Assembly (NCBI GenBank): GCA_021730945.1
Contig: JAKFYH010000020.1
Location: 1-43,716, forward strand
Direction: 5' to 3'
Source: Acidobacteriota bacterium
GTDB lineage: Bacteria; Acidobacteriota; Vicinamibacteria; Vicinamibacterales; UBA2999
DNA: 43,716 nucleotides
This document shows positions 16,201 through 43,716 of this stretch, in pieces (within the stretch, counting starts at the first letter, position 1; each line of letters opens with the position of its first letter). Both the position numbers and the translations under genes were made by a program. Under the pieces are notes generated by a model. That model saw only the letters and a list, made by a program, of their open reading frames with translations. It had not been told where the DNA came from and ran no database searches.

Positions 16201-19200
16201 TCAGTGGAAATCGTGTGAGTCGATCGCCGCGCTGTCCGGCAGGCCGGCCAGTTTCGAGACGCGCTCGGCCTTGATCGAGGTGACGCCGTCCTGGTTCTGC
16301 AGCACGCCCTCGACGAGCAGGAATGACGACTCGACGATGATCAGGCGATCGGTGGCATACAGGTCCGGCCGGACGATGATGTTGGCAATGCCGGTTTCAT
16401 CTTCCAGCGTAAGAAACACAAAGCCCTTCGCGGTCCCCGGACGTTGGCGCGTGATCACCATGCCGGCGGTGCGCACGCGCCGGCCCGCTCGCGCTTTGGG
16501 CAATTCGCCGGCCGGCAGCACCCCGCGCATGGCGAGCTCGTGCCGGCGGAAGGTCAGCGGATGCGGGCCGACGGTGAGACCGGTACCCGAGTAATCGGCG
16601 ACCAGCCGTTCGGAGACGGTCATCTCGGGAAGCGGCCCGCCTTCGCGGCCGGAGGCCGCTACGGCGCGGTCCCGCCGGAGCTCGTCTGATTCCTCACGAG
16701 CGAAGGCGGATTCCTCGAACAGTTCGCCGGCCGGGCGCACGGCCCGCTCGACCTGCCACAGCGCCGAGCGGCGATCGTGACCCAGCGCATTGAGCGCGCC
16801 GATCTCAGCCAGTACGACCATCTCGTCGCGACGCAGCCCGGTGCGGCGCACCAGGTCATCGACACTGCGGAAGCGGGTGGCCTGGCCGGTGACGGCCGTC
16901 CACTCGTGTGAGCACACATTGCAAAACTGCGAGGCCTGCGGCGTGGCCTCGATCATCGACGGATCGTCGCAGCCACACTTGGGACATCGATCAGGGCTTG
17001 CCGAGCCGAAGCTCGCCGGACTCTGCGCGAGCGAAGGTTGGGCGATGGCGTGACCCGCCTCGGCTCGCAAGCCGCGGACATAGCGCAAGCCCAGTCGAAT
17101 TGCGCCATCGGCGTCGACCACGCAGTCCCACTCCGAAACCTGGACATCGATCGGATGGAAGCGCACCCCGCGCCGCTGGGCGTCCTTCACCAGCGTGGCG
17201 GGATGATAGAAGCCCATCGGCTGGTTATTGAGCAGCGCCGTATAGAACGCCGCCGGATAATGCGTCTTGAAATAGGCGCTGGCATAGGCCAGCAACGCAA
17301 AGCTGGCGGCGTGGGACTCCGGAAAGCCGTACAAGGCGAACGAGGTGATGGCCAGCACGATGCGATCGGCGGCGTCGCTGGTGATGCCGTTCTTCGCCAT
17401 GCCCTCGCGCAGCAATCCTTCGAGCTGCAGCATCCGCTTCTCGGATCGCTTGAAGCCCATGGCCCGGCGCAAGTCTTCGGCCTGGCCGCCGGTGAAGCCC
17501 GCCACCGCCATGGCCATGCGCAGCAACTGTTCCTGGAACAGCGGCACCCCCAGCGTGCGCTTGAGGATCGGTTCGAGCAGCGGGTGATCGTAGGTCACCG
17601 CCTCGCGCCCGGCCCGCCGGTTGAGATAGGGATGCACCATCTGGCCGACGATCGGCCCCGGCCGAATCAGCGCCACCTCGACGACCAGGTCGTAGAACTT
17701 CTCGGGCTTGAGCCGCGGCAGCGTCGCCATCTGCGCCCGCGACTCGACCTGGAACACGCCAATGGTGTCGGCCGCGCGCAGCATCTTGTAAACCTCGGGG
17801 TCATCTGCTGGAAGAGACGCGAGGCTGACCCCTCGCTGACGGGAGGCCCCAAGTTCCAGGTCGGGAGGTTGAGTCCTGTCGGGAGACAATTCGTGTCGGG
17901 ATTCTTCCAGACGCCACTCACATTCCCGACCAGTAGTTCCCTCCCGACCCGCATTGCCCTCCCGACCAGTGGTTCCCTCCCGGCTGTTAATCAGATGAAT
18001 GGTGTCCTGCAGCACCGCCATCATGCCGAGCCCCAGCAGATCCACCTTGATGATGCCCATGTCGGCGCAGTCTTCCTTGTCCCACTGCACCACCACGCGG
18101 CCGGGCATGCTCGCGTTCTCGAGCGGCACCACCGACGACAAGTCGCCCTGGCACACCACCATGCCGCCCGAGTGCTGGCCCAGATGACGCGGCAGGTCCT
18201 GCAGTTGCCGCCAGAGCGCAGCAAAGTGCCGCACGCGCGGCTCGTCGCCGGCCATGCCGACTTCGGCCAGCTTCTTCGACAGCGTGTCGGCGGGATCGAT
18301 GAACTCGAACTGGTGCATTACCTTGGCCAGGCGATCGACCTGTCCTTCGTCGAGGTCCAGCGCCTTGCCCACCTCGCGCGCCGCGCTCTTGCCGCGATAG
18401 GTGATGACGTTGGCGGTCATGGCGGCGCCGTGCTGTCCATACTTCTGGTAGACGTGCTGAATCACGCGCTCGCGCCGATCACCGCTCGGCAGATCAAGAT
18501 CGATATCGGGCCACTCGCCACGCTCTTCCGACAGGAAGCGCTCGAACAGCAACTCCATCGCCACCGGATCGACCGCGGTAATGCCCAGGCTGTAGCACAC
18601 GGCGCTGTTGGCGGCCGACCCGCGCCCCTGCACCAGGATGTTCTGCTGCCGGCAGAAATTGACGATGTCCCACACGATCAGGAAGTAGCCGGCCAGCTGC
18701 AGCTTTTCGATCAGATCCAGCTCGCGCGCGACCTGGGCACGGGCCTTGTCGTAGTACGGGCGGTAGCGATCGCGGGCGCCGACTTCGGTAATCTTGCGGA
18801 GAAACGAGATCTCGGTCTCCCCGTCGGGCACTGGGTAGCGCGGAAAGCGATACCCGAGGTCGGTCATCGTGAACTGCAGGCGATCGGCCAGGTCGCGCGT
18901 GGCGTGGATCGCGGCCGGCCGATCCGCGAACAGGCGCGCCATCTGCGCCGGCGGCTTCAAGTAGCGCTCGGCATTGGCCGCCAGCCGCCGGCCGGCACGA
19001 TGCAGCGGCACGTGTTCACGAATCGCGGTCAGCACGTCAAACAGCGGCCGCTCCTCAGGCGTGGCAAAACTCACGCCGCCGGTGGCCACCAGCGGCACGC
19101 CAAAGGCCTCGGCCAGGCACACCAGTGTGTCGTTGTCGTCCTCCTGGTCGCGGTGCAGGTGCCGCTGCAACTCCACGTAGGTGTTGGCACGGCCGAAGGT

Positions 19201-19725
19201 GCCGACGATGCGGTCGAGCAGGCCGCCGACACCGTAGCACTCGGCCCTGAGCAACGCGCGGCCCGGCATGGCAATCAACCCGGTGGTGAAGCCGTCGAGT
19301 TCATCGATGCCGAGCGCGCCCTCGCCCTTGGGCGCCCGCAACTTCATGCGCGACAGCAGACGACAGAGGTTGCGCCAGCCTTCTTGCGAGGACACCAACA
19401 CGGGCAGATGAAATCTGGCGATCTCGTGCGCTGGTGATTTGAGGATTTGGTCACGGGATCTGGGGGCCTGGCGAACTTTGTGATTGCGGGTGGCGGCTTC
19501 GACCGTGAGTTCGGCACCGATCAGTGGACGCAAGCCCGCAGCGCGTGCTGCCTTATGGAAACGCGGCGCGCCGGAGACGCCGTCGCGGTCGAGCAGCGCC
19601 ACCGCCGGGTAGCCCAGCATGGCGGCGCGCTCGACCAGGGTTTCCGGCGCCGACGCGGCGCGCAAGAAACTGAACGCAGATGAAGTGTGAAGTTCGATAT
19701 ACACAGACGGAGCCGCAGATGACAC
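16201..19725 (-). CDS. dnaE2: DnaE2 (ImuC), error-prone DNA polymerase III alpha subunit, with several in-frame insertions
   Basis: The catalytic polymerase of the ImuA-ImuB-DnaE2 mutasome for damage-induced mutagenic translesion synthesis. The PHP-like N-terminus (YIELHTSSAFSFLRAAS) has lost metal-site histidines, as in DnaE2. The palm has GRGSAANSAVCYSLGI and PDIDLDLPSGDRRE, with KVDLLGLGMM carrying a further Asp. A C-terminal OB fold (RTAGMVITRQRPGTAKGFVF) and FVFLTLEDETG follow. At 1174 aa it is longer than usual. The extra sequence is in linkers: about 78-101, 577-640 (18-bp repeats), 895-943 (zinc-ribbon-like C914/C917/C935/C938) and 1005-1030 (palindromic element peptide). The GTG at 19725 lies in repeat DNA; a GTG at 19704 is an equally good start. 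Confidence 0.93.
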   Translation of the reverse strand: MSSAAPSVYIELHTSSAFSFLRAASAPETLVERAAMLGYPAVALLDRDGVSGAPRFHKAARAAGLRPLIGAELTVEAATRNHKVRQAPRSRDQILKSPAHEIARFHLPVLVSSQEGWRNLCRLLSRMKLRAPKGEGALGIDELDGFTTGLIAMPGRALLRAECYGVGGLLDRIVGTFGRANTYVELQRHLHRDQEDDNDTLVCLAEAFGVPLVATGGVSFATPEERPLFDVLTAIREHVPLHRAGRRLAANAERYLKPPAQMARLFADRPAAIHATRDLADRLQFTMTDLGYRFPRYPVPDGETEISFLRKITEVGARDRYRPYYDKARAQVARELDLIEKLQLAGYFLIVWDIVNFCRQQNILVQGRGSAANSAVCYSLGITAVDPVAMELLFERFLSEERGEWPDIDLDLPSGDRRERVIQHVYQKYGQHGAAMTANVITYRGKSAAREVGKALDLDEGQVDRLAKVMHQFEFIDPADTLSKKLAEVGMAGDEPRVRHFAALWRQLQDLPRHLGQHSGGMVVCQGDLSSVVPLENASMPGRVVVQWDKEDCADMGIIKVDLLGLGMMAVLQDTIHLINSREGTTGREGNAGREGTTGRECEWRLEESRHELSPDRTQPPDLELGASRQRGVSLASLPADDPEVYKMLRAADTIGVFQVESRAQMATLPRLKPEKFYDLVVEVALIRPGPIVGQMVHPYLNRRAGREAVTYDHPLLEPILKRTLGVPLFQEQLLRMAMAVAGFTGGQAEDLRRAMGFKRSEKRMLQLEGLLREGMAKNGITSDAADRIVLAITSFALYGFPESHAASFALLAYASAYFKTHYPAAFYTALLNNQPMGFYHPATLVKDAQRRGVRFHPIDVQVSEWDCVVDADGAIRLGLRYVRGLRAEAGHAIAQPSLAQSPASFGSASPDRCPKCGCDDPSMIEATPQASQFCNVCSHEWTAVTGQATRFRSVDDLVRRTGLRRDEMVVLAEIGALNALGHDRRSALWQVERAVRPAGELFEESAFAREESDELRRDRAVAASGREGGPLPEMTVSERLVADYSGTGLTVGPHPLTFRRHELAMRGVLPAGELPKARAGRRVRTAGMVITRQRPGTAKGFVFLTLEDETGIANIIVRPDLYATDRLIIVESSFLLVEGVLQNQDGVTSIKAERVSKLAGLPDSAAIDSHDFH
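16637..16709. repeat. 73-bp palindromic element inside dnaE2
   Basis: A copy of the dispersed element with ends CCGCCTTCGC and GCGAAGGCGG and the internal CGGCCGGAGGCCG hairpin. On the dnaE2 strand it is open and encodes ELRRDRAVAASGREGG with flanking ARE-SD residues. This is nearly the peptide encoded by the imuB copy. It sits in the variable linker before the polymerase's C-terminal OB region. Confidence 0.88.
16897..16990 (-). other. Four-cysteine zinc-ribbon-like module inserted in DnaE2
   Basis: Within the dnaE2 frame, CPKC (codons at 16975-16986) and CNVC (16912-16923) are separated by 17 residues, followed by SHEW. This C-x2-C-x17-C-x2-C spacing fits a small zinc ribbon. In DnaE2 proteins I would expect this place, between the helix-hairpin-helix region's RAEAG and RFRSVDDLVRR, to be a short connection. 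It is flanked on one side by a palindromic repeat (16986-17040). Confidence 0.65.
16986..17040. repeat. Second type of palindromic repeat inside dnaE2
   Basis: Contains GAGCCGAAGCTCGCC and GCGAGCGAAGG, which form overlapping inverted words (CGAGC/GCTCG, CCTTCGCTCGC). It encodes AQPSLAQSPASFGSAS in DnaE2 directly before the zinc-ribbon-like module. It is related in composition to, but not the same as, the 73-bp element. Confidence 0.5.
17919..17983. repeat. 18-bp minisatellite inside dnaE2
   Basis: About three and a half units of an 18-bp repeat (TTCCCTCCCGACCAGTGG and variants at 17937, 17955 and 17973). On the coding strand they encode REGTTG-REGNAG-REGTTG-RE. The same 18-bp unit occurs at 26478-26536, 27491-27612 and 43663-43716. 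The insertion lies between the palm (KVDLLGLGMMAVLQDTIHLINS) and the conserved SLPADDPEVYKML. Confidence 0.85.
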
Positions 19726-19830
19726 AGATGACGCAGAGAAAACAATTATGAAAAGGCGGCGTGACAGTTCAGGTCAGGTCAGCCGCAGTACGAATAGAAA
19801 TGCCTCTGCGTCCTCTGTGGCCGGCTTTCA
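19706..19830. repeat. Repeat-derived spacer between imuB and dnaE2
   Basis: The imuB-dnaE2 gap holds CAGATGACACAGATGACGCAG and CTGCGTCCTCTGTGG words. The former also make up the 42-bp imuB repeat, and CCTCTGTGGCCG recurs at 28869-28880. The proposed dnaE2 GTG at 19725 lies within it, so this repeat has formed the 5' end of the gene. No clear ribosome binding site or promoter is visible here. Confidence 0.5.
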
Positions 19831-19833
19831 GCG

Positions 19834-21474
19834 CTAATCCACGACGCCCTCCAAGAACCACTGGCCAACCGCGCGTTCGACCACCAGCCGGTAAATGGTG
19901 CCGTCGGCCATGGCCACGTCCCATTCGTCGCGATCCCACGACGCAGACGCAGACAGACCCAGGGCCGCAGATGACACAGATGACGCAGACGCAGACAGAC
20001 CCAGGGCCGCAGATGACGCAGATGACGCAGACGCAGACAGACCCAGGGCCGCAGATGACGCAGATGATGCAGATTCGGGACCGGGCGTCGTCCACCACTC
20101 TCCAGAGGTCCGCCAGGGGCCTGCGGCCTGGACGACGGCGCCGCTTGAGAAGCCGTTGCGGTCGGTGACAATGCGGACGGGACGGCCTTCCTGGACATGG
20201 ACGCGCGTGGGGATGGGAAAGCGAAAACGGCGGAAGGCACATGGCAGATTGGCGATTGACGATTGACGATCAATTTCAGGTTGTCGATTGGCCATCGACG
20301 ATTGATTGCCAATTGACGATTGGAAATCACCCATTGCGAAATCACCCGGCCGCCAGGTATCCACGAGGACGGGTGAGCCCACGTGCTTCTCGCCCATGAG
20401 CGCGCTCAGGCGGGCCACCAGGGTCGCCACCTGTTCCGGCGCCGGTTGCGCCCGTTCGAGCAGCGTCCACTGCAGCACGCGGCCCGGCGTCGGCTCGATG
20501 AAGACCCGCACGGTGTCAATCGGCGCGTCGGGCGGATGCGTTTCGAGGTCGAGCAGCACCAGCGTGCGCAACGTCTTGGCATCGCGCATGGGCGCCGGCA
20601 ACTGTAACGTGCGCGCGTGGACGCGCCGGGTGGTGAGGCGCAGCGACGTGTGGATGACGGCCGCCGAGCGATCGGCGCCCTCCAGCCGTTCCGCGAGCGG
20701 TTCGAGCAATCGCGCCAGCACGAAGGACAACGGCTCGAGGCCTTCGATCGGCCACTCCAACGCCAGGTCCGCCTCGAACGGCACTTCGTCCACCCACGGC
20801 ACCAGCGGCCGAATATCAAGACCACGGGCCAGGCCCTGCCATCGCAGGCCGCGATCGCCCAGGCGCTCGAACACTTCAGGACCGGCAATCTTCGTCAACG
20901 CACCGAGTGTGCGAATGCCCCACTTGGTGAGAATCTCGAGCTGACGGTTCTCACCAGCTCGCGATTTCGGGCGGCTGGCTTGATGGGTCTGCCGGGGGTG
21001 GTGCCAGCCCCCGCCTTCGCGGCCGGAGGCCGCTACGGCGGGGTCTCGCCGCAGCTCGCCCGATTGTTCGCGAGCGGAGGCGGACAACTTCTCGTAGCGA
21101 TCGAGCACGCTGATGCTGAGCGGCGCGAGGGCCTGCTCTTCTTGCCCAGGCGCGACAACCGTGAGACCGGGGCGACCGAGTGCGAGCAGTGCCGCGGCGG
21201 TTTGCGTGGCGGCAATCGCCACCCGCCCTTCGATGCGGTCCCGATCGCGATCGGGCCCGCGCTCAGGACAAGCGGCCAGCCCACCCGGAGCCTGCCTCTG
21301 AATCGCATCGCGGAGATGTTCCCCCAATTCCTGCGGGCTGCCAAACAGACGCGACAGGCCATTCGCATCGAGCAGCATAAGCGGACCCACCTGCTCGAAG
21401 CGCGGCGTAAACGCCCGCGCCACTTCGGCAATGGCCGCCGCCGGAACCGACGGGGCAAACAGCGCGGCAAACAC
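19834..21474 (-). CDS. imuB: ImuB, inactive Y-family polymerase-like subunit of the mutasome
   Basis: About 546 residues. The GTG at 21474 is chosen because it starts the family N-terminus (MFAALFAPSVPAAAIAEVA) 3 nt after the imuA stop; a GTG at 21531 would overlap imuA by 55 bp. ImuB has a Y-family polymerase fold without catalytic acidic residues and links DnaE2 to the sliding clamp. Recognisable parts are the palm (MLLDANGLSRLFGSPQELGE), the helix-hairpin-helix (LTKWGIRTLGALTKIAG) and the little finger. Three in-frame repeat insertions are seen: the palindromic-element peptide (about 131-154), an AT-richer SSIGNQSSMANRQ stretch (about 382-409), and three 14-residue ASSAALGLSAS repeats (about 470-511). 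The last two sit near the C-terminal tail. Confidence 0.92.
   Translation of the reverse strand: MFAALFAPSVPAAAIAEVARAFTPRFEQVGPLMLLDANGLSRLFGSPQELGEHLRDAIQRQAPGGLAACPERGPDRDRDRIEGRVAIAATQTAAALLALGRPGLTVVAPGQEEQALAPLSISVLDRYEKLSASAREQSGELRRDPAVAASGREGGGWHHPRQTHQASRPKSRAGENRQLEILTKWGIRTLGALTKIAGPEVFERLGDRGLRWQGLARGLDIRPLVPWVDEVPFEADLALEWPIEGLEPLSFVLARLLEPLAERLEGADRSAAVIHTSLRLTTRRVHARTLQLPAPMRDAKTLRTLVLLDLETHPPDAPIDTVRVFIEPTPGRVLQWTLLERAQPAPEQVATLVARLSALMGEKHVGSPVLVDTWRPGDFAMGDFQSSIGNQSSMANRQPEIDRQSSIANLPCAFRRFRFPIPTRVHVQEGRPVRIVTDRNGFSSGAVVQAAGPWRTSGEWWTTPGPESASSASSAALGLSASASSASSAALGLSASASSVSSAALGLSASASWDRDEWDVAMADGTIYRLVVERAVGQWFLEGVVD
19940..20065. repeat. 42-bp tandem repeat inside imuB
   Basis: Three near-perfect 42-bp units (19940-19981, 19982-20023, 20024-20065) plus a partial fourth. 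Each encodes 14 residues of the pattern ASSASSAALGLSAS in ImuB. One unit contains GCAGATGACACAGATGACG, shared with the spacer upstream of dnaE2. The near-identity of the units suggests recent expansion. Confidence 0.92.
20248..20329. repeat. AT-richer GATTGACGATTG repeat inside imuB
   Basis: Interspersed GATTGACGATTG, GATTGGCCATCGACGATTG and AATTGACGATTGG words, partly inverted, in a region clearly richer in A and T than its surroundings. In frame it encodes QSSIGNQSSMANRQPEIDRQ. It looks like an insertion in an otherwise conserved C-terminal region. Confidence 0.75.
21011..21083. repeat. 73-bp palindromic element inside imuB
   Basis: Ends CCGCCTTCGC and GCGGAGGCGG with internal CGGCCGGAGGCCG. 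On the coding strand the element is open and encodes ASAREQSGELRRDPAVAASG followed by REGG. The same frame is used by the dnaE2 copy, so the element seems to be tolerated as a protein-coding insertion. Confidence 0.9.
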
Positions 21475-21476
21475 GA

Positions 21477-22319
21477 TTACACCGCGTGGACGAAACGTGT
21501 CTGAATGGCGACATGCTGGGCGTGCGACCACCGCGCTGCCGAGACGGCAGCACCAGCACGAACACCGCTCAAGCGGCGCGAACGCTCATGGTCGCCTTTC
21601 CAAACGGGAGTCGGGAGGCGGGAGGCGGGAGTCGACGGGCGAGAGGCGGAAGTCGACGAGGAGTCGGCGCCCATGACGATCGAGCGCCCGCCGGAACTGC
21701 GAGCCACGGACTGGGCGGCCAGAATAACAACGGCCGTGTCGCTGCCTTCAATGGCGCGCTCGATGCGGAACCAGGTGGCGGCCGGCAACCGGCGTAACGC
21801 CTGGGCCGGCACGTCGATCAGGTCGATGGCGACCAGTGTGCATACACCCGACTGCACAACCAGGTTCAACGACTTGATGGCACGGTCAATTACGCGCTCG
21901 ACGAACGTGCCGGGGCCGTTGACCGCGCGCACGCCTGGGAGCCAGGCCGGATCGATGGCCACCGCGGTCTTCGACACCGCCTGGCCGCGCACCCACAACA
22001 GGTGCGGCAACACGATGCCGCACGCCGAAGCCGTCGGCGGATCAAAACGGTCGAACGTATCGATGAGCGCGACGGTTTCGCCACGGCGCGTCGCCGCCGC
22101 CAAGGCTGCCCAGACCAGTCCCGTACGACCAGACGAAGCCGGTCCCACCACTTCAGACACCTGCCCGCGCGGCAAGCCACCGGCTAGTCCGCGGTCCAAA
22201 GCGGCGACGTCAAGCGGCGAGACCCCGTCTTCGCCCAGGCGTTCGGGAATGGCAGAGGTGAGGGTACGGTCGAGTTTTCGCTCTCGGAGCAGGGCTTCTA
22301 CGGTGGCGCGGACGGCCAT
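21477..22319 (-). CDS. imuA: ImuA, RecA-like accessory protein of the mutasome
   Basis: A 280-residue RecA/SulA-related protein, first gene of imuA-imuB-dnaE2. The Walker A-like segment GPASSGRTG (59-67) has Arg in place of the usual Lys, as I recall for ImuA. Conserved RecA-like strands VSEVVGPASSGRT, ETVALIDTFDRFDPP and VVILAAQS are visible. The C-terminal part carries a Ser/Pro stretch (SSSTSASRPSTPASRLPTP) encoded by CGGGAGTCG-type DNA repeats. The ATG at 22319 has GAGGTGAG just upstream and a good promoter at 22349-22376. Confidence 0.9.
   Translation of the reverse strand: MAVRATVEALLRERKLDRTLTSAIPERLGEDGVSPLDVAALDRGLAGGLPRGQVSEVVGPASSGRTGLVWAALAAATRRGETVALIDTFDRFDPPTASACGIVLPHLLWVRGQAVSKTAVAIDPAWLPGVRAVNGPGTFVERVIDRAIKSLNLVVQSGVCTLVAIDLIDVPAQALRRLPAATWFRIERAIEGSDTAVVILAAQSVARSSGGRSIVMGADSSSTSASRPSTPASRLPTPVWKGDHERSRRLSGVRAGAAVSAARWSHAQHVAIQTRFVHAV
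21600..21664. repeat. CGGGAGTCG/CGGGAGGCG simple repeat inside imuA
   Basis: Degenerate repeats of GGGAGTCG, GGGAGGCG and GCGGAAGTCGACG encode the Ser/Thr/Pro-rich stretch in the ImuA C-terminal region. The frame is preserved. Confidence 0.6.
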
Positions 22320-26468: not shown

Positions 26469-26477
26469 CGGAACCTG

Positions 26478-26536
26478 GCGGGAGGGCACGGCTTGTCGGG
26501 AGGGCACGGCTCGTCGGGAGGGCACTGCTCGTCGGG
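26478..26536. repeat. 18-bp minisatellite after the MFS gene
   Basis: Three units of GGGAGGGCACGGCTTGTC-type 18-bp repeat, the reverse complement of the array at 27491-27612. It fills the gap between the MFS stop codon and the 3' end of the frameshifted thioesterase gene. Confidence 0.85.
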
Positions 26537-26549
26537 ACCGCCTATCCGC

Positions 26550-27268: not shown

Positions 27269-27480
27269 TCAAGGATCCGCGAGGCGATTTCGGCCTTGGC
27301 AGCGAGAATCAGTTTCTGCGCCCGCGGCATGGCGGGGAGCGCCTCGATCGGCGACGGGCATTGGACGAGTTCGGATTCGGTTTCGGGCTCGATCGCATGT
27401 CGGGCGACGCAGTCGGGGCACACCCCGGCCTCGTCATCGGTGGTGTGACACGCACAATCGCAGCCAGCGCCTTCGGTCAC
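27154..27480 (-). CDS. Possible small cysteine-rich protein (doubtful)
   Basis: From a GTG at 27480 an open frame of about 108 residues begins MTEGAGCDCACHTTDDEAGVCPDC, with two C-x-C/C-x2-C groups that could bind metal, then a helical MPRAQKLILAAKAEIASRIL. It overlaps the convergent membrane-protein gene by about 115 bp, which is rare for two real genes. Without it, 27269-27632 contains only the minisatellite. Reported with low confidence. Confidence 0.25.
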   Translation of the reverse strand: MTEGAGCDCACHTTDDEAGVCPDCVARHAIEPETESELVQCPSPIEALPAMPRAQKLILAAKAEIASRILDQRVCVFFIRLDATLPSPAVPPSATNHAITQSTGLVCQ

Positions 27481-27490
27481 TGCCGCAACT

Positions 27491-27612
27491 TCTGATCCCG
27501 ACAAAAAATGCCCTCCCGACAAGAGGTGCCCTCCCGACAAGAAGTGCCCTCCCGACAGGAGATGCCCTCCCGACAAGAAGTGCCCTCCCGTTCAGGAGAT
27601 GCCCTCCCGTCT
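27491..27612. repeat. 18-bp minisatellite array
   Basis: About six head-to-tail units of TGCCCTCCCGACAAGAAG (starting at 27509, 27527, 27545, 27563 and 27581) with degenerate ends; the last full unit is 19 bp. There are no unique spacers, so it is not a CRISPR array. It is the longest of four copies of this family in the window. Confidence 0.92.
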
Positions 27613-43124: not shown

Positions 43125-43716
43125 GTAAATTTCCCCGGGTCAACATCGTTCGCGCGGATCAGCAGGGCCACGGCCGCGAGCAGTCCGGCCAGTAGCGCGA
43201 ACACGAACCCGTAGCCGCTCGCCTCGGCCATGGCGGCGACGCCGACCGGCCCAGCCGCCCGCGCCAACTGTTGAGGGCGGGCAAAGCGGCCGTTCATTTC
43301 ACCCGCGCGATCCTGGCCGTAATAGACCAGCACGAGAAACGGCCGCGCGATGGTGGCCAGCCCAGAACCACCAGCAAACAGCGACACCCCGGCCGCGATG
43401 CCAGCCACCGAATGCGCCATCGCGAGGGACGCCAGCCCGATCACCTGCAACCCCATGCTGACGGCCACCAGCACCATCGGGCTGACCGACCCGGTGTGGC
43501 GCATGAAGAGCAGGCGTCCGGGCAGTTGCATGATGCCGAACAATCCGCCGACGGCACCCGCGGCGGTCGGGGTCAAGCCGCGCTCCAGCAGCGCCGGCAC
43601 CAGGTTCGACGCCAACGCCGCGCCGGCAAAGCTCGACGCGGTGAACACTGCCATTAGCACTCCTTGCCGGGAGGGCACTGCTTGTCGGGTGGGCACTGCT
43701 TGTCGGGAGGGTGCTG
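43121..43716 (-). CDS. C-terminal half of an MFS transporter, open to the window edge
   Basis: The visible part has about six hydrophobic segments and matches helices 7-12 of a major facilitator (FAGAALASNLVPALLERGLTPTAAG, GIMQLPGRLLFM, GGSGLATIARPFLVLVYYG, GLLAAVALLIRAND). The frame stays open through the 18-bp repeat to base 43716, so the first half is probably encoded beyond the window. The repeat then encodes PSRQAV-type hexapeptides in the central cytoplasmic loop. A GTG at 43696 or a start at 43654 would give a half-size protein instead. Confidence 0.7.
   Translation of the reverse strand, partial: APSRQAVPTRQAVPSRQGVLMAVFTASSFAGAALASNLVPALLERGLTPTAAGAVGGLFGIMQLPGRLLFMRHTGSVSPMVLVAVSMGLQVIGLASLAMAHSVAGIAAGVSLFAGGSGLATIARPFLVLVYYGQDRAGEMNGRFARPQQLARAAGPVGVAAMAEASGYGFVFALLAGLLAAVALLIRANDVDPGKFT
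43663..43716. repeat. 18-bp minisatellite at the window edge
   Basis: Nearly three units of GGGAGGGCACTGCTTGTC at 18-bp spacing, in frame with the MFS gene and encoding PSRQAV, PTRQAV and PSRQGV. The array runs to the end of the window and may be longer. Confidence 0.85.

Follow-up and report, generated by a model that had tools for sequence, protein, structure and literature searches.

The closest described counterparts of the element reported here are the Rickettsia palindromic elements (RPE), which, according to the accessible portions of two sources, are palindromic, multi-copy and found both between genes and in frame within unrelated genes (PMC2229807, PMC10969869). REPs have in turn been reported within DNA synthesis and repair genes, including DnaE2 genes, and the available part of that source adds that upstream genes may end on a stop codon within the repeat (PMC3733652), as possibly happens in one of the relatives considered here (G013). 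Bacterial MITEs such as ERIC/RU-1 and Correia/NEMIS, as far as the accessible text of PMC2229807 describes them, are small, bear terminal inverted repeats and are sometimes fused in frame to genes. In the literature on palindromic repeats and intragenic elements of Acidobacteria we found no report of the element family described below, subscription papers being mostly outside our reach.

The family came to light in a 43,716-nucleotide stretch of an Acidobacteriota genome, hereafter the window; the window's own genome is G000, and other G numbers denote the relatives searched. Like RPE, the element is a palindromic repeat that lies in frame inside unrelated protein genes (45 of 151 copies; 35-36 sites when the imuB copy is included), and this likeness of behaviour supports the view that it works in much the same way. 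Unlike RPE, it measures 75 or 78 bp (versus 105-146 bp in the accessible part of PMC2229807), belongs to a different phylum, has a four-arm structure with C...A ends, and uses four of the six strand and frame combinations. With the GTAG- and CGTC-tagged intragenic REPs it shares the character of a short in-gene palindrome with DnaE2 among its hosts, yet it is longer than their 20-40 bp (both as given in the available part of PMC3733652). Its ends are CCGCC...GGCGG, with GTAG only internal and in some copies, its conserved ends and flanks are without CGTC, and, in contrast to the GTAG REP/RAYT arrangement, no RAYT gene is flanked by the element at the five Y1 loci of its own genome. The outer stem provides the terminal inverted repeats typical of a MITE, but whereas ERIC/RU-1 and Correia/NEMIS have TA ends and target-site duplications (accessible part of PMC2229807), the element shows no duplication in the 8 informative copies out of 135. 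Translated palindromic elements, best known from Rickettsia, are hereby extended to another phylum, with copies enough for selection to be measured.

Within the window, dnaE2 encodes an error-prone DNA polymerase (16201-19725, minus strand; NCBIfam PRK05672, 1213.5 bits, cut-off 939), and an imuB-like gene (19834-21531, minus), Y-family-related with weak profile matches below cut-off, overlaps an imuA-like RecA-domain gene (21477-22319, minus) whose ImuA model match also lies below cut-off. The initial annotation had marked 73-bp elements with common ends in the first two genes, correctly as to position, length and ends: the imuB copy occupies 21011-21083 and the dnaE2 copy 16637-16709, both bounded by CCGCCTTCGC and GCG(G or A)AGGCGG. 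The shared frame claimed for them also holds, since each is read on the minus strand in the identical frame, giving SASAREQSGELRRDPAVAASGREGG at ImuB residues 150-174 and SAFAREESDELRRDRAVAASGREGG at DnaE2 residues 1006-1030, the latter in the linker that joins the HHH domain to the OB-fold domain; judged by the open frame, the element would be translated in its host genes. The 73 bp stand as the core, but what inserts extends one base further on either side (21010-21084 and 16636-16710), giving C...A ends, 75 bp and 25 codons. Alongside the single dnaE2 copy recorded earlier there is also a second, decayed piece at 17005-17037 (minus; QPSLAQSPASFG, starting at residue 896), immediately ahead of a zinc-ribbon-like motif. 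The two non-coding copies previously placed at 2477-2642 are present between genes on the plus strand (2477-2550 and 2569-2642, 74 bp each); they lie within a tandemly duplicated 92-bp unit with 96% identity across it, and so probably arose by local duplication.

A pattern search of the whole genome with the two ends and a variable middle gave 9 matches, the reversed-pattern control giving 0, and a covariance model placed the element at 29 distinct places in its own genome at E ≤ 0.01, weak ones included (150 candidates scored; 51 matches when both strands are counted). In an Rfam search of the window no family reached its gathering score. Matches at E ≤ 0.001 were present in 36 of the 60 genomes searched, the own genome included, with 4 to 59 per genome within the genus (both strands counted, at most 82 candidates scored per genome). 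Of 149 genomes sampled evenly across the phylum, 5 matched at E ≤ 1e-5, own included, and all of these belong to the same order. From regions drawn from the best 150 matches, 151 copies were located, which take in almost every match listed for the genus, for G029 and for G036, and most of those for G013; this set, in which most copies are 73-76 bp long, is the better-conserved part of the family. The inference that the window holds members of a family of translated, gene-inserting palindromes was sound: there are many copies, relatives differ in where they have it, and the element stands in frame in many genes. The G013 version is 74-76 bp long (L213-L231) and never genic, and several upstream genes there may end on an in-element stop. 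A public bin labelled Acidimicrobiia contains a DnaE2 that matches this genus's at 79%, and is probably mislabelled.

The letters flanking the copies are C..A or T..G in 139 of 151 cases. In a test on tandem arrays, removal of one extra base per side restored the array unit in 8 of 135 copies, three of the eight coming from G013, and none of 35 other cuts restored more than 3. It follows that an insertion comprises 75 or 78 bp running from C to A, and that it produces no target-site duplication; these boundaries are seen directly in the few testable arrays. The dinucleotide GG precedes 62 of 102 testable copies outside G013 (21 of 36 genic, 41 of 66 non-genic) versus a background of 0.09, 16 non-G013 copies having been excluded for their ends or short flanks. 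In G013, cgt/gaa flanks are common to 32 of 33 copies and no copy is genic, so that the element may spread there together with its array.

The palindromic folding noticed in the initial annotation is real, but it comprises three internal hairpins plus an outer stem rather than one hairpin, which together would make a possible four-way palindrome. Three of four DNA minimum-energy folds take this form, and for the fourth the centroid does (z = -2.3 to -2.8), and a cloverleaf appears in four of five RNA folds (z = -1.6 to -3.6); both minimum-energy folds without it, one of four for DNA and one of five for RNA, are those of the imuB copy. Across 19 own copies 93.2% of stem cells are paired, as opposed to 35-51% with the partners slid. 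Shuffles that keep the column make-up are nevertheless 92.6% paired on average, and the case for the stems thus lies more in complementarity than in compensatory change; with 42 of 500 such shuffles reaching the observed pairing, covariation was judged weak as proof of the stems. Stem pairs are retained to the same degree in genic and non-genic copies (0.943 versus 0.934, P 0.18), and in the outer stem, the source of the terminal inverted repeats, the first five pairs form in 96-100% and 97-100% of them, respectively. At one A-T pair, which if intact would place TAG stops in two reading frames, most copies carry a mismatch, and this includes the non-genic ones. Stop avoidance at this position in genic copies was considered and dropped as circular, because the in-frame criterion nearly forces it.

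Copies were called genic from the coding potential of their flanks together with the lack of a stop through the element, on either strand, and the in-frame copies make up 34 of 108 in the discovery set, 11 of 43 in the held-out set and 0 of 33 in G013. When the flanks alone are considered, 34 of the 108 discovery copies are strongly coding on one strand, 26 of these 34 keep one frame, and in 24 of the 26 the element is stop-free. The strand and frame common to imuB and dnaE2 are not kept in all other genes: four of the six combinations occur (minus/2 in 17 copies, plus/0 in 11, minus/0 in 9 and plus/2 in 8), and the two phase-1 combinations are absent. The imuB copy, which had failed the automatic coding threshold, was included manually, giving 46 copies at 36 scripted sites, or 35 once the dnaE2 site of G000 and G005, split by the script, is merged; hence the figure of 35-36. 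Although phase 1 (CGC CTT CGC) is usually an open frame, it is used at none of these sites, against an expected share of 0.358 (non-genic copies outside G013 have 324 open frames, 116 of them in phase 1). With six frames taken as equally likely except for stops, zero in 35-36 has P of about 1e-7; in the held-out set alone (11 copies, with six new sites and five common to the discovery set) P is about 0.07. Phase-1 peptides would be 33-38% Arg with a mean charge of about +7.6, versus 10-23% Arg and charges of +1.4 to +3.6 for the others. We infer selection as the source of this bias, which amounts to a natural test of the 25-residue peptides that proteins tolerate. Outside the 151-copy set, the PHP region of the G029 DnaE2 contains a decayed copy whose left half is read in phase 0 and whose right half appears to be in phase 1, a switch that seems to follow an indel.

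In at least 7 of 29 host proteins scanned the copy splits a single Pfam domain, the domains concerned being poly(A) polymerase head, Beta-lactamase2, Ni_insertion, DUF2400, PseudoU_synth_2, DUF1800 and Amidohydro_3. Copy length is 1 mod 3 in 44 of 45 genic versus 46 of 73 non-genic copies outside G013 (P 4e-6); as a sign of selection this was rejected, since the in-frame criterion nearly forces it, and it supports the boundaries instead. At one gene site, counted once, the copies L159 (G002) and L237 (G007) are opposite in orientation and differ in frame, an arrangement suggestive of two insertions into a single hot site.

Comparison of aligned relatives revealed full, empty and decayed states of the same sites. 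In the head domain of poly(A) polymerase the site is full in G001 and empty in G000, G003 and G005, and G002 and G004 retain the first part of the element in frame (G006 gave no match, and three genomes of other families were not aligned). The pseudouridine synthase site is full in G007 only; G000, G001, G003, G004 and G005 are without the element there, G006 may hold a short remnant and G002 carries a different insert.

Across the family the two mutasome genes carry elements at five sites, three in dnaE2 and two in imuB, and the aligned ImuB and DnaE2 positions are mostly element-free in relatives, so the inserted peptides are not native. Only G000 and G005 among the aligned genomes carry the element at 16637-16709, the two copies being 92% alike over 75 nt with the same hypervariable loop, and their flanks 82-83%. 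The ImuB site at 21011-21083 is whole in G000 only and decayed in G001 (blastn 2.5e-10, model E 0.014), and G005 has another copy in a second imuB linker with opposite strand reading. At the zinc-ribbon site of dnaE2 (17005-17037 in G000) remnants also occur in G003, G006, G007, G008 and G013, with best E from 1.3e-8 to 3.6e-5 where the reversed-library control reached 1e-4, and G029 has a nearly full-length copy at this site as well as one further copy in the PHP linker. Remnants in G031 and G032 (E 2.6e-4, from one or two library copies) were left uncounted, given that the reversed-library control produced three matches down to 1e-4. Among 80 further DnaE2 loci, the sole match at E ≤ 0.01 was L273, from G029. 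The four-cysteine zinc-ribbon-like motif itself (CPKCGCDD...FCNVC, about 16900-17000) is conserved in 16 aligned DnaE2 of the order, and a simple pattern finds it in 5 of the 80 further loci.

The claim that the family had struck two subunits of one mutasome stands insofar as both copies are real, but these genes are not the sole target, there being about 30 other gene sites. Since the linkers of dnaE2 and ImuB hold several unrelated repeat families across the order, the double insertion partly reflects permissive linkers, which are the simplest cause. In AlphaFold models pLDDT averages 68 for ImuB and falls below 50 at 158-178 and 180-192, taking in most of the insert at 150-174; for DnaE2 the mean is 42. 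Because such insertions recur in DnaE2, as was already noted with other REP families, how far mutasome linkers tolerate them can be tested directly. A 42-bp tandem repeat, ASSASSAALGLS, in the 3' part of imuB (19940-20073) resembles 19688-19737, a stretch spanning the start of dnaE2 and the spacer upstream of it.

Sites that are full in some genomes and empty or decayed in others, together with the frame bias, are very probably best explained by a non-autonomous mobile palindrome that inserts cleanly into genes, becomes a translated cassette and is subject to selection after insertion. Such a palindrome, 75 or 78 bp long and foldable as a four-arm cloverleaf, would be mobilised in trans by an enzyme and would insert without target-site duplication, preferably after GG, into both intergenic tandem arrays and genes. 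A unit length divisible by three means that each insertion lengthens the host gene by 25 or 26 codons, and that gene would survive when the added peptide lands in a tolerant linker or loop. Copies in the arginine-rich phase were probably removed by selection after insertion rather than at the insertion step, and the remaining genic copies would later be passed on by descent or eroded by in-frame deletions.

As to what moves the element, neither a transposase for it nor an autonomous partner came to light. A Y1 mechanism would fit the hairpin ends and the clean, duplication-free insertion behind a short 5' motif. The element could accordingly be a REP mobilised by a RAYT (Y1, IS200/IS605-like) transposase, as for GTAG REPs, and five Y1_Tnp matches exist in the own genome. 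The terminal GTAG is absent, however, the five own Y1 loci contain zero elements at E ≤ 0.1 over 16,590 bases searched, and G052 and G057 (the latter 74% complete) yield no Y1 match despite 42 and 49 matches to the element. Y1 counts track element counts across the 60 genomes (Spearman 0.39, P 0.002), yet in the nine genus genomes alone the correlation is -0.17 (P 0.66). A RAYT origin is thus unlikely and not favoured, yet the positive 60-genome correlation weighs against dismissing it. Alternatively, the copies could have passed from one tandem array to another by recombination or template switching instead of transposition. This would suit the many non-genic copies in short tandem arrays, the tandem duplication at 2477-2642 and the identical flank letters of 32 of 33 G013 copies, but genic copies have varied flanks and sit inside conserved domains, and the empty sites of relatives are without array sequence, which leaves this route rather improbable.

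The reading of the peptides as native to ImuB and DnaE2, with convergent DNA, has in its favour that both stretches are open in frame and that the dnaE2 copy is common to G005. It was rejected as scarcely credible: the DNA matches the intergenic copies over the full 73 bp, stems included, most relatives are without the element at the aligned positions, and other genes read the same DNA in other frames and on the opposite strand. Insertion into mutasome genes might itself be selectively favoured, tuning mutagenesis. Five sites in two genes are occupied across the family, other REP families are also reported inside DnaE2 genes (available part of PMC3733652), and the imuB copy of G005, among the matches listed, is independent of the original finding, with an expectation of about 0.04 (P about 0.04), itself an estimate for roughly 35 genic copies, with about 5.2 kb taken out of some 4.3 Mb. 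Tolerance suffices, on the other hand, where unrelated repeats share the same linkers, the majority of genic copies lie in other genes, and the G000 pair was noticed because of the coincidence itself, so we regard such tuning as very doubtful. Hardly more probable is an element adapted to intragenic life as a reusable 25-codon linker cassette for flexible protein regions, with DnaE2 and ImuB as recurrent hosts, a suggestion prompted by the unit length being a multiple of three and by the mismatched TAG-forming A-T pair in most copies. The mobile, non-autonomous palindrome with selection acting after insertion is the reading we retain.

The window also contains an 18-bp tandem repeat (CCCTCCCGAC...) at 17906-18000, within dnaE2, and at 26474-26537, 27478-27608 and 43657-43711. 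Genome-wide, its pattern has 203 matches with at most 2 mismatches, versus 2 for the reversed pattern.
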